In this document: positions 29,784-34,057 of the stretch, piece by piece | Layout: the number at the start of each line of letters is the position of its first letter | Numbering within the stretch: the stretch's first letter is position 1 | Assembly: GCA_947494645.1 (NCBI GenBank) | Contig: CANLVO010000001.1 | Coordinates: 1,178,001-1,242,000 of the forward strand | Length of the DNA stretch: 64,000 bases | DNA from: an uncultured Litoreibacter sp. | Lineage (GTDB): Bacteria > Pseudomonadota > Alphaproteobacteria > Rhodobacterales > Rhodobacteraceae | Reading direction: 5' to 3' | The notes under the pieces: model-generated | Seen by the model: only the letters and a program-made list of their open reading frames with translations | What the model was told of the DNA's origin: nothing | Database searches by the model: none | Translations under genes and position numbers: made by a program

Positions 29784-30827
29784 TCATGAGAACATAGCCC
29801 GCAGGTCGACGGTGGAGCGGTTGTTCAGATCTGACCAATGTGCGCGCAGGAAAGCATCCGCCCCGTCGCGACCAGCCTGCTTTAGCTCGCCTAGTACATA
29901 GGGGGTGGGCACCATCTTGGTGGCGACAGAGAGCTGGGTCATCAGACGGTCATCAGAAATCATGTGGACCAGCACGTCTTCCATTGTGCCCGGCTTGACC
30001 GCGCCGTTGGCCAGCAGGTTGCGGACGAATTGGATGGCGCGCAACTCGCGGAAAAGGGAGCCGTTGAAGCTGATCTCGTTGATCCGGTTCTGGATCTCTT
30101 GCGGAGATTTCGGGACATCCTCGCGGTAAAGCGGGTTGATGTTGATAATAACGATGTCCTGGGTGTCATTATAAAAGAGCGGGAACAGCGCGGGGTTGCC
30201 CATATAGCCGCCGTCCCAATAGGCCTCCTCCTGCCCGGTGCGGGGATCGAACTTTTCCACCGCCTTGAAGAGGGTGGGCAAGCAACCTGAGGCCAGCAGC
30301 GCGTCGCTGTCGATCTCATCACCCTCAAAGATCCGGATCTTGCCCGTGCGCACATTGGTCGCGCAGATGAACAGCTCGGGCCCTTCGGAGGCGCAGACGC
30401 GGTCATATGAAAGCTGTTCCACGATCGCGCCCAGCGGATGCGGCATCAGATTACCGAACTGGTAGGGGCTCATCATGCGGCTCATCATGTCGGCGGCAAG
30501 GAAGGCTGGGGACAGCTCCATCGCCTTGCTGACGCTTTGGGGCGTGACGCCCGTCATCCACGCGGGCAGGGAGGGTTGATCAAGCGCGCCGATTTCTTGC
30601 CAGAGCCAGGTGAGTTTCGCGCGTGCGCCGTCGCGGCCATCCTCGACCCAGCCAGACTTGAGCGCGGCGGCGTTTAGGGCACCGGCTGAGGTGCCGGACA
30701 TGCCGGTGATCTCAAGCTTGTCTTCCTCAAGCAGGCGGTCGAGCACACCCCATGTGTAGGCGCCATGCGCCCCGCCACCTTGCAGCGCGAGGTTGATCGA
30801 CTTGGAGGCGGATTTAGCCATTGCCAT
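29784..30827 (-). CDS. Patatin-like phospholipase family protein
   Basis: Serine lipase/esterase of the patatin family, 347 residues. The oxyanion motif LQGGGAHGAYTWG, nucleophile elbow GMSGTSAG and catalytic Asp motif WDGGYMGNP are all present, giving an intact Ser-Asp dyad. No signal peptide, so it is probably cytoplasmic. It is the last gene of a unit with 3-hydroxybutyrate dehydrogenase and a pentapeptide-repeat protein; the start overlaps the latter by 14 bp. The context suggests action on polyhydroxybutyrate or its oligomers, but this is inference; phospholipase activity is equally possible. Confidence 0.88.
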   Translation of the reverse strand: MAMAKSASKSINLALQGGGAHGAYTWGVLDRLLEEDKLEITGMSGTSAGALNAAALKSGWVEDGRDGARAKLTWLWQEIGALDQPSLPAWMTGVTPQSVSKAMELSPAFLAADMMSRMMSPYQFGNLMPHPLGAIVEQLSYDRVCASEGPELFICATNVRTGKIRIFEGDEIDSDALLASGCLPTLFKAVEKFDPRTGQEEAYWDGGYMGNPALFPLFYNDTQDIVIININPLYREDVPKSPQEIQNRINEISFNGSLFRELRAIQFVRNLLANGAVKPGTMEDVLVHMISDDRLMTQLSVATKMVPTPYVLGELKQAGRDGADAFLRAHWSDLNNRSTVDLRAMFS

Positions 30828-31155
30828 TTAATGTGTCATAGGCGGCGACCATGTCGCTGAGGGGGATGCCGTCAAGAGTGACATCTGTGATGTTGGCGTT
30901 GCTGATCGCGAGGCCTTGCAGGTTGGCATTGTCGATCTTCACACCCGACAGGTTCACATTCGTGAAGGAGGCCCCAGACAGGTTGGCATTGTCGAAGCCC
31001 AACCCTTCGGCATTCACATCTGAGAACCGTGCCTGCATCAGATGGCTGTCGGTAAAGGTTGCATCTTTCAGGCTGACACGTGTGAAGGTCGAGCCGCACA
31101 GGAACATGTTGTCGATATTGAGCTGCTCGCGGCCTGCTTCCTCTTGCTCGCTCAT
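30814..31155 (-). CDS. Pentapeptide-repeat protein
   Basis: A 113-residue protein made mainly of A(D/N)LXX-type pentapeptide repeats: from about residue 45, FDNANLSGASFTNVNLSGV, then IDNANLQGLAIS and NANITDVTLDG. Such repeats form a right-handed quadrilateral beta helix. The ATG at 31155 overlaps the bdhA stop in ATGA, so the upstream frame opening to 31221 is not used. Function is unknown; the short length rules out DNA-gyrase mimics of the usual size. Confidence 0.85.
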   Translation of the reverse strand: MSEQEEAGREQLNIDNMFLCGSTFTRVSLKDATFTDSHLMQARFSDVNAEGLGFDNANLSGASFTNVNLSGVKIDNANLQGLAISNANITDVTLDGIPLSDMVAAYDTLNGNG

Positions 31156-31925
31156 AACGCGGTCCAGCCGCCATCGACACTGATCGTCGTGCCGGTGATT
31201 TGTGCCGCTGCGTCTGAGCACAGGAATGCGGCGACGCCGCCCAGTTGTTCGGTGGTGGCGAATTCCTTGGAGGGCTGGCGCTCGAGCAGCACTTTTTCGA
31301 TCACCTCTTCCTCCGTCATGTCGTATTTCTTGGCAGTGTCGGGGATTTGCGCCTCGACCAGTGGTGTGCGGACATAACCGGGGCAGATGGCGTTGGCTGT
31401 GATCGGTTCGCGTGCGGTTTCCAGCGCGACGACTTTGGTCATACCCACGACGCCGTGCTTGGCCGAGACATAGGCAGATTTATAGGGCGAGGCCGTGAGC
31501 CCGTGGGCGGAGGAGATGTTGATAACCCGGCCCCAGCCAGCCTTGCGCATCAGCGGGATGGCGGCGGCGGTGGTGTGAAACACGCTTGAGAGCATGATGG
31601 CGATGATCATGTCCCACTTTTCTGCCGGGAACTCATCAATGGGAGCCACATGTTGAATACCTGCATTGTTGATCAGGATATCGACCTCACCGGCTTTCTC
31701 GATCAGCGCACGGGCCTGATCGCCTTTTGACAGATCGGCCTGGATATAGCGGGCTTGGGTTTTGGTGACGCGTGAGATTTCTTCGGCGAGCGCGTGGTCG
31801 TCTTTATTATCCGTGTAGGAGTTCAACACCACATTAGCCCCAGCGCGGGCCAGCTCTTGTGCGATGCCAAGGCCGATGCCTGAATTGGACCCGGTTATGA
31901 CGGCGGTTTTTCCTTTGACGGACAT
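31152..31925 (-). CDS. bdhA: 3-hydroxybutyrate dehydrogenase BdhA
   Basis: Short-chain dehydrogenase that interconverts D-3-hydroxybutyrate and acetoacetate, the last step of PHB breakdown. NAD motif TGSNSGIGLGIAQ, NNAGIQHV, catalytic Ser and Y-x-x-x-K in SSAHGLTASPYKSAYVSAKHG, and the family segment CPGYVRTPLVEAQIPD. 257 residues. The three genes bdhA, pentapeptide repeat and patatin overlap end to end on the minus strand. Confidence 0.92.
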   Translation of the reverse strand: MSVKGKTAVITGSNSGIGLGIAQELARAGANVVLNSYTDNKDDHALAEEISRVTKTQARYIQADLSKGDQARALIEKAGEVDILINNAGIQHVAPIDEFPAEKWDMIIAIMLSSVFHTTAAAIPLMRKAGWGRVINISSAHGLTASPYKSAYVSAKHGVVGMTKVVALETAREPITANAICPGYVRTPLVEAQIPDTAKKYDMTEEEVIEKVLLERQPSKEFATTEQLGGVAAFLCSDAAAQITGTTISVDGGWTAL

Positions 31926-32051: not shown

Positions 32052-32131
32052 GCCAAAAAAAAAACACCAGCCGAAGCTGGTGTTAAGTTATTGAGGCAGG
32101 TTTCATACAGGCAAGAAACCTATCGAGCAGT
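32052..32131 (-). ncRNA. Predicted Hfq-type small RNA, about 80 nt
   Basis: An intergenic transcription unit with no ORF. A minus-strand promoter has -35 TTGGCG (32161-32166) and -10 TATAAA (32138-32143) with a 17-bp spacer, which predicts a start near 32131. The RNA would hold a first hairpin AGGUUUC/GAAACCU with loop UUGCCUGUAU (32098-32121) and end in a stem AACACCAGC-UUCG-GCUGGUGUU (32063-32084) followed by a run of U (32055-32064). The terminator faces away from every annotated gene on that strand (the region upstream belongs to a plus-strand gene), so an sRNA is the simplest reading. No expression evidence here. Confidence 0.65.
32055..32084 (-). terminator. Strong UUCG-loop Rho-independent terminator
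   Basis: Minus strand: nine-base-pair stem AACACCAGC/GCTGGTGTT with a TTCG tetraloop, then a run of about ten T. On the plus strand the A-run precedes the stem and no T-run follows, so it acts on the minus strand. It ends the predicted sRNA. Confidence 0.9.
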
Positions 32132-32137
32132 AAGAGC

Positions 32138-32166
32138 TTTATAAGCAATGACTTGCCTCTCGCCAA
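32138..32166 (-). promoter_or_regulatory. Sigma-70-type promoter of the predicted sRNA
   Basis: Minus-strand TTGGCG (32166-32161), 17-bp spacer and TATAAA (32143-32138). Five-of-six and near-consensus -10 matches are unusual in this GC-rich sequence, which supports a real promoter. Confidence 0.6.
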
Positions 32167-32245
32167 GCATAAAGTTTGTGTTGGCCAAAAAGCCTCTTTA
32201 CGATCAGATGTAACAAAAAATGGGGCGTGAGGGAGAGTTGCCAAA

Positions 32246-34057
32246 ATGAGATCAGTGTTTTTCCAAGCAGGAACCTCCTTGGCCTTTGCAGCGGGCCTTT
32301 TGATCGGTGGTGCGGCGCTGGCCGAGCCGAAACATGGCATAGCTATGTATGGCGACCCCGCTCTGCCACCAGACTTTGTGTCTTTGCCCTATGTGAACGC
32401 AGATGCCCCGTTTGGCGGGGCCGTCTCGGCTGGTGAGGTTGGCAGCTTCGATTCACTGAACCCACATATCCAAAAGGGACGTGTGCCCTGGCAGCTACGG
32501 TTCTTGGCATACGAGTCCCTGATGGGGCGCAGTTTGGACGAGCCGTTCACCCTCTATGGCCTGCTGGCCGAATCGATAGATGTCAGCCCGAACGGCGATT
32601 CTGTAGAATTCGTCCTGCGCGAAGAGGCGCGGTTCTCGGATGGCAGCCCGGTCACTGTCGAAGACGTGATCTGGTCGTATGAGACATTGGGGACCAGGGG
32701 CCATGGTCGGTATCGCGGCAGTTGGACCAAGGTGGAGAAGGTCGAGCAAACCGGACCGCAATCGGTGAAGTTTACGTTCAACGTGGAAGACCGTGAGCTG
32801 GCCTTGATTATGGGCATGCGTCCGGTTCTGAAAAAGGCGCAATGGGAGGGCAAGGAGTTTGAAGACTCTGGGCTCGATGTGATCCCGATTTCATCTGCGC
32901 CTTACGTGATCGACGACTTTGAGGCGGGCCGCTTCGTATCGTTGAAGCGGAACCCTGACTATTGGGGGCAAGATATTCCGTTTCGCCGGGGCACCAATGT
33001 CATTGACGAGGTGCGGATGGAGTTCTTCTCTGACGCCACCGCGATGTTTGAGGCCTTCAAGGCGGGCGAGTTGACCTCGCACCGGGAGACCAACGCGCAA
33101 AAATGGGCGCAGCAGTTCGACTTTGCCCGCGTGCAATCGGGCGACGTGGTGAAATCCGAGATTGCGCATGACCGGCCTTCGGGCATGACCGGCTTTGCGA
33201 TGAACACGCGGCGCGAAGTGTTCAGCGACTGGCGCGTGCGCGAGGCGATGATACAGGCGTTCAACTTCGAGTTCATCAACACGGCGCTCAATGGCGGGGA
33301 TCAGCCGCGCATCACGTCGTATTTCTCCAACTCGGTGCTGGGAATGGGGCATGGGCCTGCTGAGGGCCGGGTACTAGAGTTGCTGGACGCGCATAAGGAC
33401 ACGCTGCAGCCGGGCGCAATCGAGGGCTACAGCCTGCCCGAAAGCGACGGCTCACAGCGCAACCGCGCGGGCATCGTGAAAGCGCAAGAGCTGCTGGCGG
33501 AGGCCGGCTATGAGGTCAAAGACGGGGTGATGACCTCTGCCGATGGCAAACCGCTGAGCTTCAAAATATTGGCAAGCTCGGGCAGCTCGGAAGTGGCGGC
33601 GATACTGAACATCTACACCCAGGCGCTGGAGCGGATCGGGGTGTTTGTCACGGTCGATACCATTGACGGGGCACAATACCGCGAGCGCACGGATCAGTTC
33701 GACTTTGACATGACCTATTTCACCCGCGGCCTGAGCCTGAGCCCGGGCAATGAACAGCTGGCCTATTGGGGCACGGATGCAGCTGATACGAACGGCTCGC
33801 GCAACCTGCCGGGGATCAAGATGCCTGCGGTAGATGCGATGGTACAGGAGATGCTAACCGCCAGCAGCCGGGAGGAATATCTGGCTGCCGTGAAGGCGTT
33901 GGACCGGATGCTGATGGCCGGGCGGTATGTGATCCCGATCTGGTTCTCGCCCATTTCGCGGCTGGCCCATAATAAAGAGATGAAACGCCCGGACGTCACA
34001 CCTGCTTATGGCGACTGGCCGGGCTACCTGCCGGATGTGTGGTGGGTCGAAGAGTAA
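32246..34057 (+). CDS. Extracellular solute-binding protein, YejA type (peptide ABC transporter)
   Basis: Periplasmic family 5 substrate-binding protein of 603 residues. Signal peptide at residues 1-26 (ending GGAALA-EP). The start HGIAMYGDPALPPDFVSLPYVN and GGAVSAGEVGSFDSLNPHIQKG are typical of YejA-like oligopeptide binding proteins; SVEFVLREEARFSDGSPVTVEDV is the family 5 core. The permease and ATPase genes usually next to yejA (yejB, yejE, yejF) are not adjacent, so this protein is an orphan. A GAGGGAGAG Shine-Dalgarno precedes the ATG. The predicted sRNA lies divergently upstream. Confidence 0.9.
   Translation: MRSVFFQAGTSLAFAAGLLIGGAALAEPKHGIAMYGDPALPPDFVSLPYVNADAPFGGAVSAGEVGSFDSLNPHIQKGRVPWQLRFLAYESLMGRSLDEPFTLYGLLAESIDVSPNGDSVEFVLREEARFSDGSPVTVEDVIWSYETLGTRGHGRYRGSWTKVEKVEQTGPQSVKFTFNVEDRELALIMGMRPVLKKAQWEGKEFEDSGLDVIPISSAPYVIDDFEAGRFVSLKRNPDYWGQDIPFRRGTNVIDEVRMEFFSDATAMFEAFKAGELTSHRETNAQKWAQQFDFARVQSGDVVKSEIAHDRPSGMTGFAMNTRREVFSDWRVREAMIQAFNFEFINTALNGGDQPRITSYFSNSVLGMGHGPAEGRVLELLDAHKDTLQPGAIEGYSLPESDGSQRNRAGIVKAQELLAEAGYEVKDGVMTSADGKPLSFKILASSGSSEVAAILNIYTQALERIGVFVTVDTIDGAQYRERTDQFDFDMTYFTRGLSLSPGNEQLAYWGTDAADTNGSRNLPGIKMPAVDAMVQEMLTASSREEYLAAVKALDRMLMAGRYVIPIWFSPISRLAHNKEMKRPDVTPAYGDWPGYLPDVWWVEE

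Follow-up and report, generated by a model that had tools for sequence, protein, structure and literature searches.

Between a 3-hydroxybutyrate dehydrogenase-like gene (bdhA, 31152-31925, minus strand) and a divergent gene for a YejA-like solute-binding protein (32246-34057, plus strand), the original prediction had placed a small RNA gene on the minus strand and had named the adjacent solute-binding protein gene as its possible target. Positions refer to the window, which is the whole stretch of 64,000 nucleotides analysed here, from an uncultured Litoreibacter sp. After bdhA, a patatin-like gene (29784-30827) and a pentapeptide-repeat-like gene (30814-31221) follow on the same strand, both named from their translations. 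This locus raises two questions: whether the intergenic sequence is a small RNA (sRNA) gene of its own, and with which RNA its product would pair.

The intergenic sRNA gene and its conservation

All the parts that had been predicted were found in order on the minus strand: a -35 hexamer TTGGCG (32161-32166), a spacer of 17 nt, a -10 hexamer TATAAA (32138-32143), a 7-bp hairpin, and a terminator with a UUCG loop. Judging from the sequence, transcription probably starts at the A at 32131, which is 115 nt from the start of the divergent gene, the distance that the prediction had given, and the RNA would be about 75 nt long (approximately 32131-32055). The hairpin AGGTTTC-TTGCCTGTAT-GAAACCT (32098-32121) is formed by the arms AGGTTTC (32121-32115) and GAAACCT (32104-32098) around a loop of 10 nt, and none of its seven pairs varies among the 24 loci aligned. 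After it come a linker rich in A and U and an intrinsic terminator with a U tail; the terminator stem is AACACCAGC-TTCG-GCTGGTGTT (32063-32084) and its T tail extends to 32055. This last helix covaries, as both sides have changed in five of its nine pairs (24 of 39 loci aligned), and for the structure as a whole the covariation score reaches 0.243, versus 0.071 in shuffles. Furthermore, none of 200 dinucleotide shuffles of the 75-nt RNA folds as well as the RNA itself (z = -4.85).

The promoter matches the sigma70 consensus at four of six positions in the -35 and five of six in the -10. A sigma70 consensus scan did not list it, because the scan requires a T at the last base of the -10, and found two promoters elsewhere versus 1.3 expected. 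The support for this promoter comes instead from its conservation across 39 loci (G000-G036 without G032, plus G095, G135 and G212), where the three bases of the -35 TTG are kept in 39, 38 and 38 loci and TAT (-12 to -10) in 38. Overlapping the -35, the 16-bp element CAAACTTTATGCTTGG (32163-32178, minus strand; family consensus CAAACTTTTAGCTTGG) is conserved in most of these loci and lies within the region common to the divergent yejA gene. No other site with fewer than two mismatches to CAAACTTTTAGCTTGG was found in six genomes, and the reversed control gave more matches in five of the six; a regulon sharing this element was consequently discarded as a candidate.

The original prediction had proposed a search for conservation of the RNA in related genomes, and this conservation extends far beyond the terminator. 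A 78-nt query of the gene found a match in 289 of 295 Rhodobacteraceae genomes (288 of 294 genera, and 258 of the 260 good genomes). In an order-wide draw, 61 of 61 genomes matched the gene, every one of them in Rhodobacteraceae, and a 320-bp query on 61 genomes (E ≤ 0.001) matched each of the 36 family relatives but no genome among the 24 from other families. Concerning the class, a covariance model of the gene was run on 142 genomes, where two Rhodobacteraceae genomes scored 104-105 bits and eight of the 140 genomes from outside the family scored at most 27.6 bits, in a search whose stricter filters lose weak matches. These low scores were not convincing as homologues outside Rhodobacteraceae. 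The sRNA is mostly single-copy in the family.

Positions 1-40 of the sRNA are identical in the 39 loci except for one T to A change in G035. An exact 40-mer scan of named genomes gave at least 118 stretches, including some from Ruegeria, Sulfitobacter, Paracoccus, Leisingera, Jannaschia, and Roseobacter; as they were picked by exact match, they were left out of the conservation counts. Among the six genomes without a match to the gene, four still carry within one mismatch the 15-mer GCCTGTATGAAACCT, which comprises the loop and the 3' arm of the hairpin (32098-32112). Three genomes with a BLAST match to the gene (G073, G103, G146) have diverged copies that do not contain the 15-mer even with one mismatch allowed, and therefore the core is not invariant everywhere.

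These results support an intergenic gene that is independent, with a promoter and an intrinsic terminator of its own, as the prediction had proposed, and the presence of a real sRNA at 32131-32055 is nearly certain on this sequence evidence. The conserved block could also be read as a micropeptide gene of seven codons (ATG AAA CCT GCC TCA ATA ACT TAA), whose ATG and first codons indeed fall inside it. Nevertheless, the stop codon is not in this position in 8 of the 39 loci, conservation reaches well upstream of the ATG, and no ribosome-binding site was seen there, so this reading was rejected and its probability is negligible.

Complementarity to the leader of mraZ

The 15-mer of the sRNA is perfectly antisense to AGGTTTCATACAGGC (site 1), which lies outside the window, at G000:C1:617937-617951, in the leader of mraZ, the first gene of the dcw cluster. 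In this genome mraZ is downstream of site 1, on the opposite strand to the 15-mer match. A search of six whole genomes with a 62-nt core (E ≤ 10) ranked the mraZ leader first among the matches away from the sRNA gene in all six. The comparison was extended to 37 leaders (G000-G036 without G007, plus G095), and perfect complementarity of at least 14 nt was found in 31 of them (20/20 in the genus of the window and 11/17 elsewhere). In 35 leaders it covers at least 11 nt, with site 1 located 178-230 nt before mraZ. Same-sense and reversed controls gave 5-9 nt, and the leaders of seven genomes from other families showed no complementarity longer than 9 nt. The exceptions are G034 (9 nt) and G028 (none), which both retain the sRNA. 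Site 1 carries one mismatch in G001, G010, G036, G035, and G095, while G024 and G031 have a shorter version of it.

A pattern search for the 15-mer allowing one mismatch gave at least two copies in 226 of 295 genomes (tallied by hand), and the reversed 15-mer gave any copy in only 15 of 295. Twenty extra exact copies from 19 genera were located; 19 of them sit 179-248 nt upstream of mraZ, which indicates where such copies lie and not how frequent they are, since they were picked as exact matches. A second copy need not be the leader, as in G028 the second copy (within one mismatch) is outside the mraZ leader. In addition, one genome has a third exact copy (L329, G178:C11:106681-106695) which is not upstream of mraZ and may be a possible partner or a chance match.

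Five other 14-nt matches to the core were present in the six genomes, three in G023 and one each in G001 and G029. Judged by the surrounding open frames they are non-orthologous, so no second recurrent long match was found in these genomes and a second conserved target was rejected, with the limit that targets with seeds of 7-10 nt would escape such a search. Only in G023 does one of them (L285) overlap the initial codons of an acyltransferase-like gene.

The data support the distant mraZ/dcw leader as the strong conserved complementarity of the sRNA, and a functional pairing between both RNAs appears highly probable. No covariation was seen in this pairing because both partners hardly vary.

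On the other hand, the target suggested in the original prediction was not borne out. On the yejA side, compared in 33 loci, the longest antisense match averages 6.6 nt (maximum 9) and that of shuffles 6.2 nt (maximum 8), and on the bdhA side the average is 6.2 nt (maximum 8), a figure that stands without a shuffle control; neither gene showed a complementarity signal as a local target. The same data bear on the reading in which there would be no independent RNA and the sequence would be an attenuator leader of bdhA or a cis-antisense element of yejA. The gene order fits it: bdhA is downstream on the same strand in the window, and yejA is the divergent neighbour in 38 of 38 relatives (among the 118 named loci listed from the 40-mer scan, divergent yejA was found in 107/109 and bdhA downstream in 85/103 of those with enough flank). 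However, bdhA is closer than 0.9 kb in just 23 of the 38 relatives, begins at 0.98-1.45 kb in 8, and was not found in the stretch in 7, and the sRNA core stays unchanged while the position or presence of bdhA varies, which argues that the sRNA is independent of it. As the antisense matches average 6-7 nt on either side, equal to shuffles on the yejA side, and the strong one is in the mraZ leader, a local element of this type is very improbable.

Apart from site 1, the 5' segment CTGCTCG of the sRNA (32124-32130, minus strand) is the complement of CGAGCAG (site 2), also in the mraZ leader. This heptamer is present in 32 of the 37 leaders versus 1.5 expected from mononucleotide shuffles, and outside site 1 the remaining 7-mers of the sRNA complement all recur in fewer than 20 leaders. 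It is always downstream of site 1, 31-44 nt further along, in the antiparallel order that pairing requires, and it is also found in 18 of the 19 extra 15-mer copies upstream of mraZ. Site 2 is missing in G014, G021, G024, G028, and G034. In G014 the sequence at this place, as read from the antisense listing, is CGAGTAG, which preserves the pairing through G-U, and G035 retains CGAGCAG though the rest of the loop has diverged. This loop is the conserved apical loop GCGAGCAGACATCCCCCCAGGTGG of a second leader hairpin (from G000:C1 617985, L003, and in other leaders). The sRNA accounts for CGAGCAG only and not for the ACATCCCCCCAGGTGG part, which is lost in G035.

The 5' end of the leader is paired with the strand that follows site 1 on its 3' side, in a stem termed here P1, so that sites 1 and 2 flank the 3' strand of a conserved stem. 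In 35 leaders the P1 arms pair better with their own partner than with permuted ones (0 of 5000 permutations as good), in a permutation that ignores relatedness and with 20 of the 35 leaders from one genus. Double changes are observed in G001 (GATAAAG/CTTTATC) and G016 (GGAGAGAG/TTCTCTCC). Co-folding of both RNAs predicts a duplex at site 1 in 6/6 genomes, interrupted by the mismatch in G095. The co-folding gain beats 60/60 shuffles in six of ten genomes and 59/60 in three more, and fails in G024, where 18/60 shuffles are as good.

Possible effect of the pairing on the dcw leader

The dcw leader is also the source of the sRNA UpsM, which according to the literature account arises by partial termination in it. 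The long terminator-bearing leader has been reported as exclusive to Rhodobacteraceae, and UpsM cleavage is described as requiring RNase E, Hfq, and RpoHI/HII (PMC5089854). UpsM is the 5' UTR of mraZ and holds the conserved complement, whereas the sRNA described here is a separate gene and would be its partner RNA. The RNase E cut has been published at genome position 694,720 (PMC6238624). Genome G095 appears to be R. sphaeroides 2.4.1, as it holds the probe sequence of StsR, another sRNA of this species, and the published cut falls in its mraZ leader; the sRNA gene of G095 is at what should be positions 1,443,996-1,444,071 of chromosome 1 of this strain, minus strand. In UpsM numbering, site 1 (with one mismatch) occupies nt 48-62 and the 3' strand of P1 nt 64-75, ending next to the cut (nt 77), and site 2 follows at nt 99-105, with the UpsM start uncertain by about 8 nt (206-nt UpsM versus 268-nt 5' UTR). 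With the 206-nt numbering, four nucleotides at the beginning of the P1 5' arm would fall upstream of +1.

Regarding these data, the sRNA can be proposed as a trans-acting, base-pairing RNA of about 75 nt whose main conserved partner is the dcw leader/UpsM and whose clamp on it would promote cutting by RNase E, a proposal for which acceptance and doubt weigh equally. The loop UUGCCUGUAU would first contact site 1, and then the AGGUUUC of the leader would displace the identical 5' arm of the sRNA hairpin, so that the duplex would in most cases reach 15-18 bp. This would release the 5' end CUGCUCG for pairing with site 2, at the loop of the leader hairpin that follows. This two-point clamp would open P1 and expose the RNase E site, UpsM and the dcw mRNA would be cut, and the expression of division genes would presumably fall when the sRNA is made. 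Transcription of the gene, use of Hfq, and duplex formation in the cell are presumed in this scheme.

The opening of P1 for RNase E is judged the most likely effect because of the analogy with StsR, whose binding is described as opening a double-stranded region of UpsM to RNase E (PMC8307010). As a mechanism it is tentative, at best evenly balanced, and among the points against it, UpsM cleavage in R. sphaeroides is already explained by StsR and needs RpoHI/HII. The geometry itself would also suit a protective duplex in which the pairing shields the leader. Site 1 abuts the 3' strand of P1, with one contact on either side of the cut, so pairing could block the cut as well as expose it. Nevertheless, StsR, the one studied sRNA on the dcw leader, is reported to promote cleavage, and the arms of the UpsM terminator stem (nt 159-170 and 181-192) are overlapped by neither site 1 nor site 2; shielding is therefore considered unlikely.

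Other partners of the sRNA may exist, since its 40 conserved nucleotides exceed the needs of the two leader contacts. This excess is also compatible with a different role for UpsM, that of a sponge which, in fast-growing cells, would draw the sRNA off its other mRNA targets, with the dcw leader itself unregulated. UpsM is reported as very abundant, making up some 60% of the sRNA bound to Hfq in exponential phase (PMC8307010, PMC5089854), and sponge RNAs pairing with conserved sRNAs have a described precedent in CrfA/SisA (PMC12559287). However, the six genomes gave no second recurrent long match to the core, within the limit on short seeds given above, and the presence of site 2 and the placement of both contacts around P1 suggest an effect on the structure of the leader. 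Titration by UpsM is for these reasons rather unlikely, if slightly less so than shielding.

Returning to the clamp, its unusual feature is the predicted placement of two contacts around an RNase E site. As the sRNA is a near-exact antisense of the start of the dcw message, it probably helps to decide the timing of division. To our knowledge, the coupling of division-gene expression to the state of growth is understood in little more than a few model bacteria. An sRNA that is conserved throughout a widespread family, absent from Rfam, and provided with one outstanding partner at the head of dcw makes this control of division directly testable.

Comparison with StsR and other known sRNAs

The original prediction had called the gene undescribed. 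This holds in that neither the window nor four other sRNA loci contain a match at the cut-off of any Rfam 15 family, and in that the exact sequence was not found in the literature searched, where a 13-mer matched in four papers, all unrelated by title. It is less secure for unnamed transcripts: an earlier detection, for instance in supplementary lists, is quite possible because 144 putative sRNAs were reported on an R. sphaeroides array and 167 are listed for P. denitrificans. Two of the latter, Intergenic 134 and Intergenic 60, are similar to the present sRNA in size and conservation as far as they are described, and the sRNA may be identical with one of them or with an RSs sRNA of R. sphaeroides. 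The main text of the R. pomeroyi sRNA paper does not contain the word mraZ.

Among the alphaproteobacterial sRNAs of similar size, the alphaR8/suhB/MmgR family (RF00519, which includes SisA-D of Caulobacter) was considered because a PHB gene adjoins the sRNA. The two align weakly through a UUCUU stretch and the terminator, with a score of 21.6 bits versus a cut-off of 41 (23.9 for the G035 copy). A characteristic conserved 10-mer has been described for this family; in the form read from the Rfam consensus, UUUCCUCCCU, it is not in the 24 aligned sRNA loci, so this identity fails on both score and motif. In the 23 genomes of Rhodobacteraceae that were searched, RF00519 matched only at other loci, and one of these matches, at an unrelated locus of G021 (L213, G021:C2:357377-357451), is an alphaR8/suhB RNA above the Rfam cut-off, with 60.4 bits. 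SorY of R. sphaeroides (RF02651) is another sRNA of Rhodobacteraceae with a similar layout. However, its score of 23.1 bits is below the Rfam cut-off of 111 and its consensus is unlike the present sRNA outside the terminator, and this identity was also rejected.

The closest known system is StsR of R. sphaeroides (formerly RSs0827), described as a small orphan sRNA of 72 nt with a terminator and complementarity to the leader/UpsM region. Identity with StsR was first assumed because of the match to UpsM, and was then discarded: the StsR Northern probe sequence, printed in PMC11354728, is absent from the gene and was found at another locus (L172, L173), and StsR has a different sequence. The exact complement of the probe is present in 2 of 295 genomes (G095 and G135) versus 289 of 295 for the present sRNA, in a search allowing up to two mismatches that a diverged StsR would escape. 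G212 gave one match with two mismatches, without similar surroundings.

StsR is reported as RpoHI/HII-dependent. The promoter of the present sRNA looks sigma70-like, but in the 39 loci it has TTG at -35, C at -14 in 34, and T at -13 in 26, bases that have been noted for RpoH promoters too (PMC3441632). TTGGCG, 17 nt, and TATAAA fit sigma70 equally well.

Both sRNAs are complementary to the UpsM/dcw 5' UTR, at different sites, as far as sequence can tell for the one described here. In our own reading of the sequence, the likely StsR site on UpsM is GGGACAGTGAA (11 nt, nt 5-15), which overlaps the 5' strand of P1. Because of this overlap, two different sRNAs appear to address opposite sides of P1, one nearly family-wide and one, by its probe, in 2 of 295 genomes. 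Both genomes with the StsR probe have a weakened site 1, with one mismatch in G095 and no second copy of the 15-mer within one mismatch in G135; with two genomes, the coincidence of StsR with a weakened site 1 is only a hint. It could be that the present sRNA, whose own hairpin would be invaded as it takes hold of the leader on both sides of the RNase E strand, is the ancestral post-transcriptional switch of the dcw (division and cell-wall) operon in Rhodobacteraceae, and that StsR replaced or joined it in the Rhodobacter lineage, where site 1 has decayed, a scenario that we hold with more doubt than confidence.

In the Rfam sense, the sRNA is a new family of an already known kind, that of trans-acting sRNAs on a 5' leader and the sRNA derived from it, and the comparison suggests that StsR, in R. 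sphaeroides, is a local variant of a control point shared across the family.
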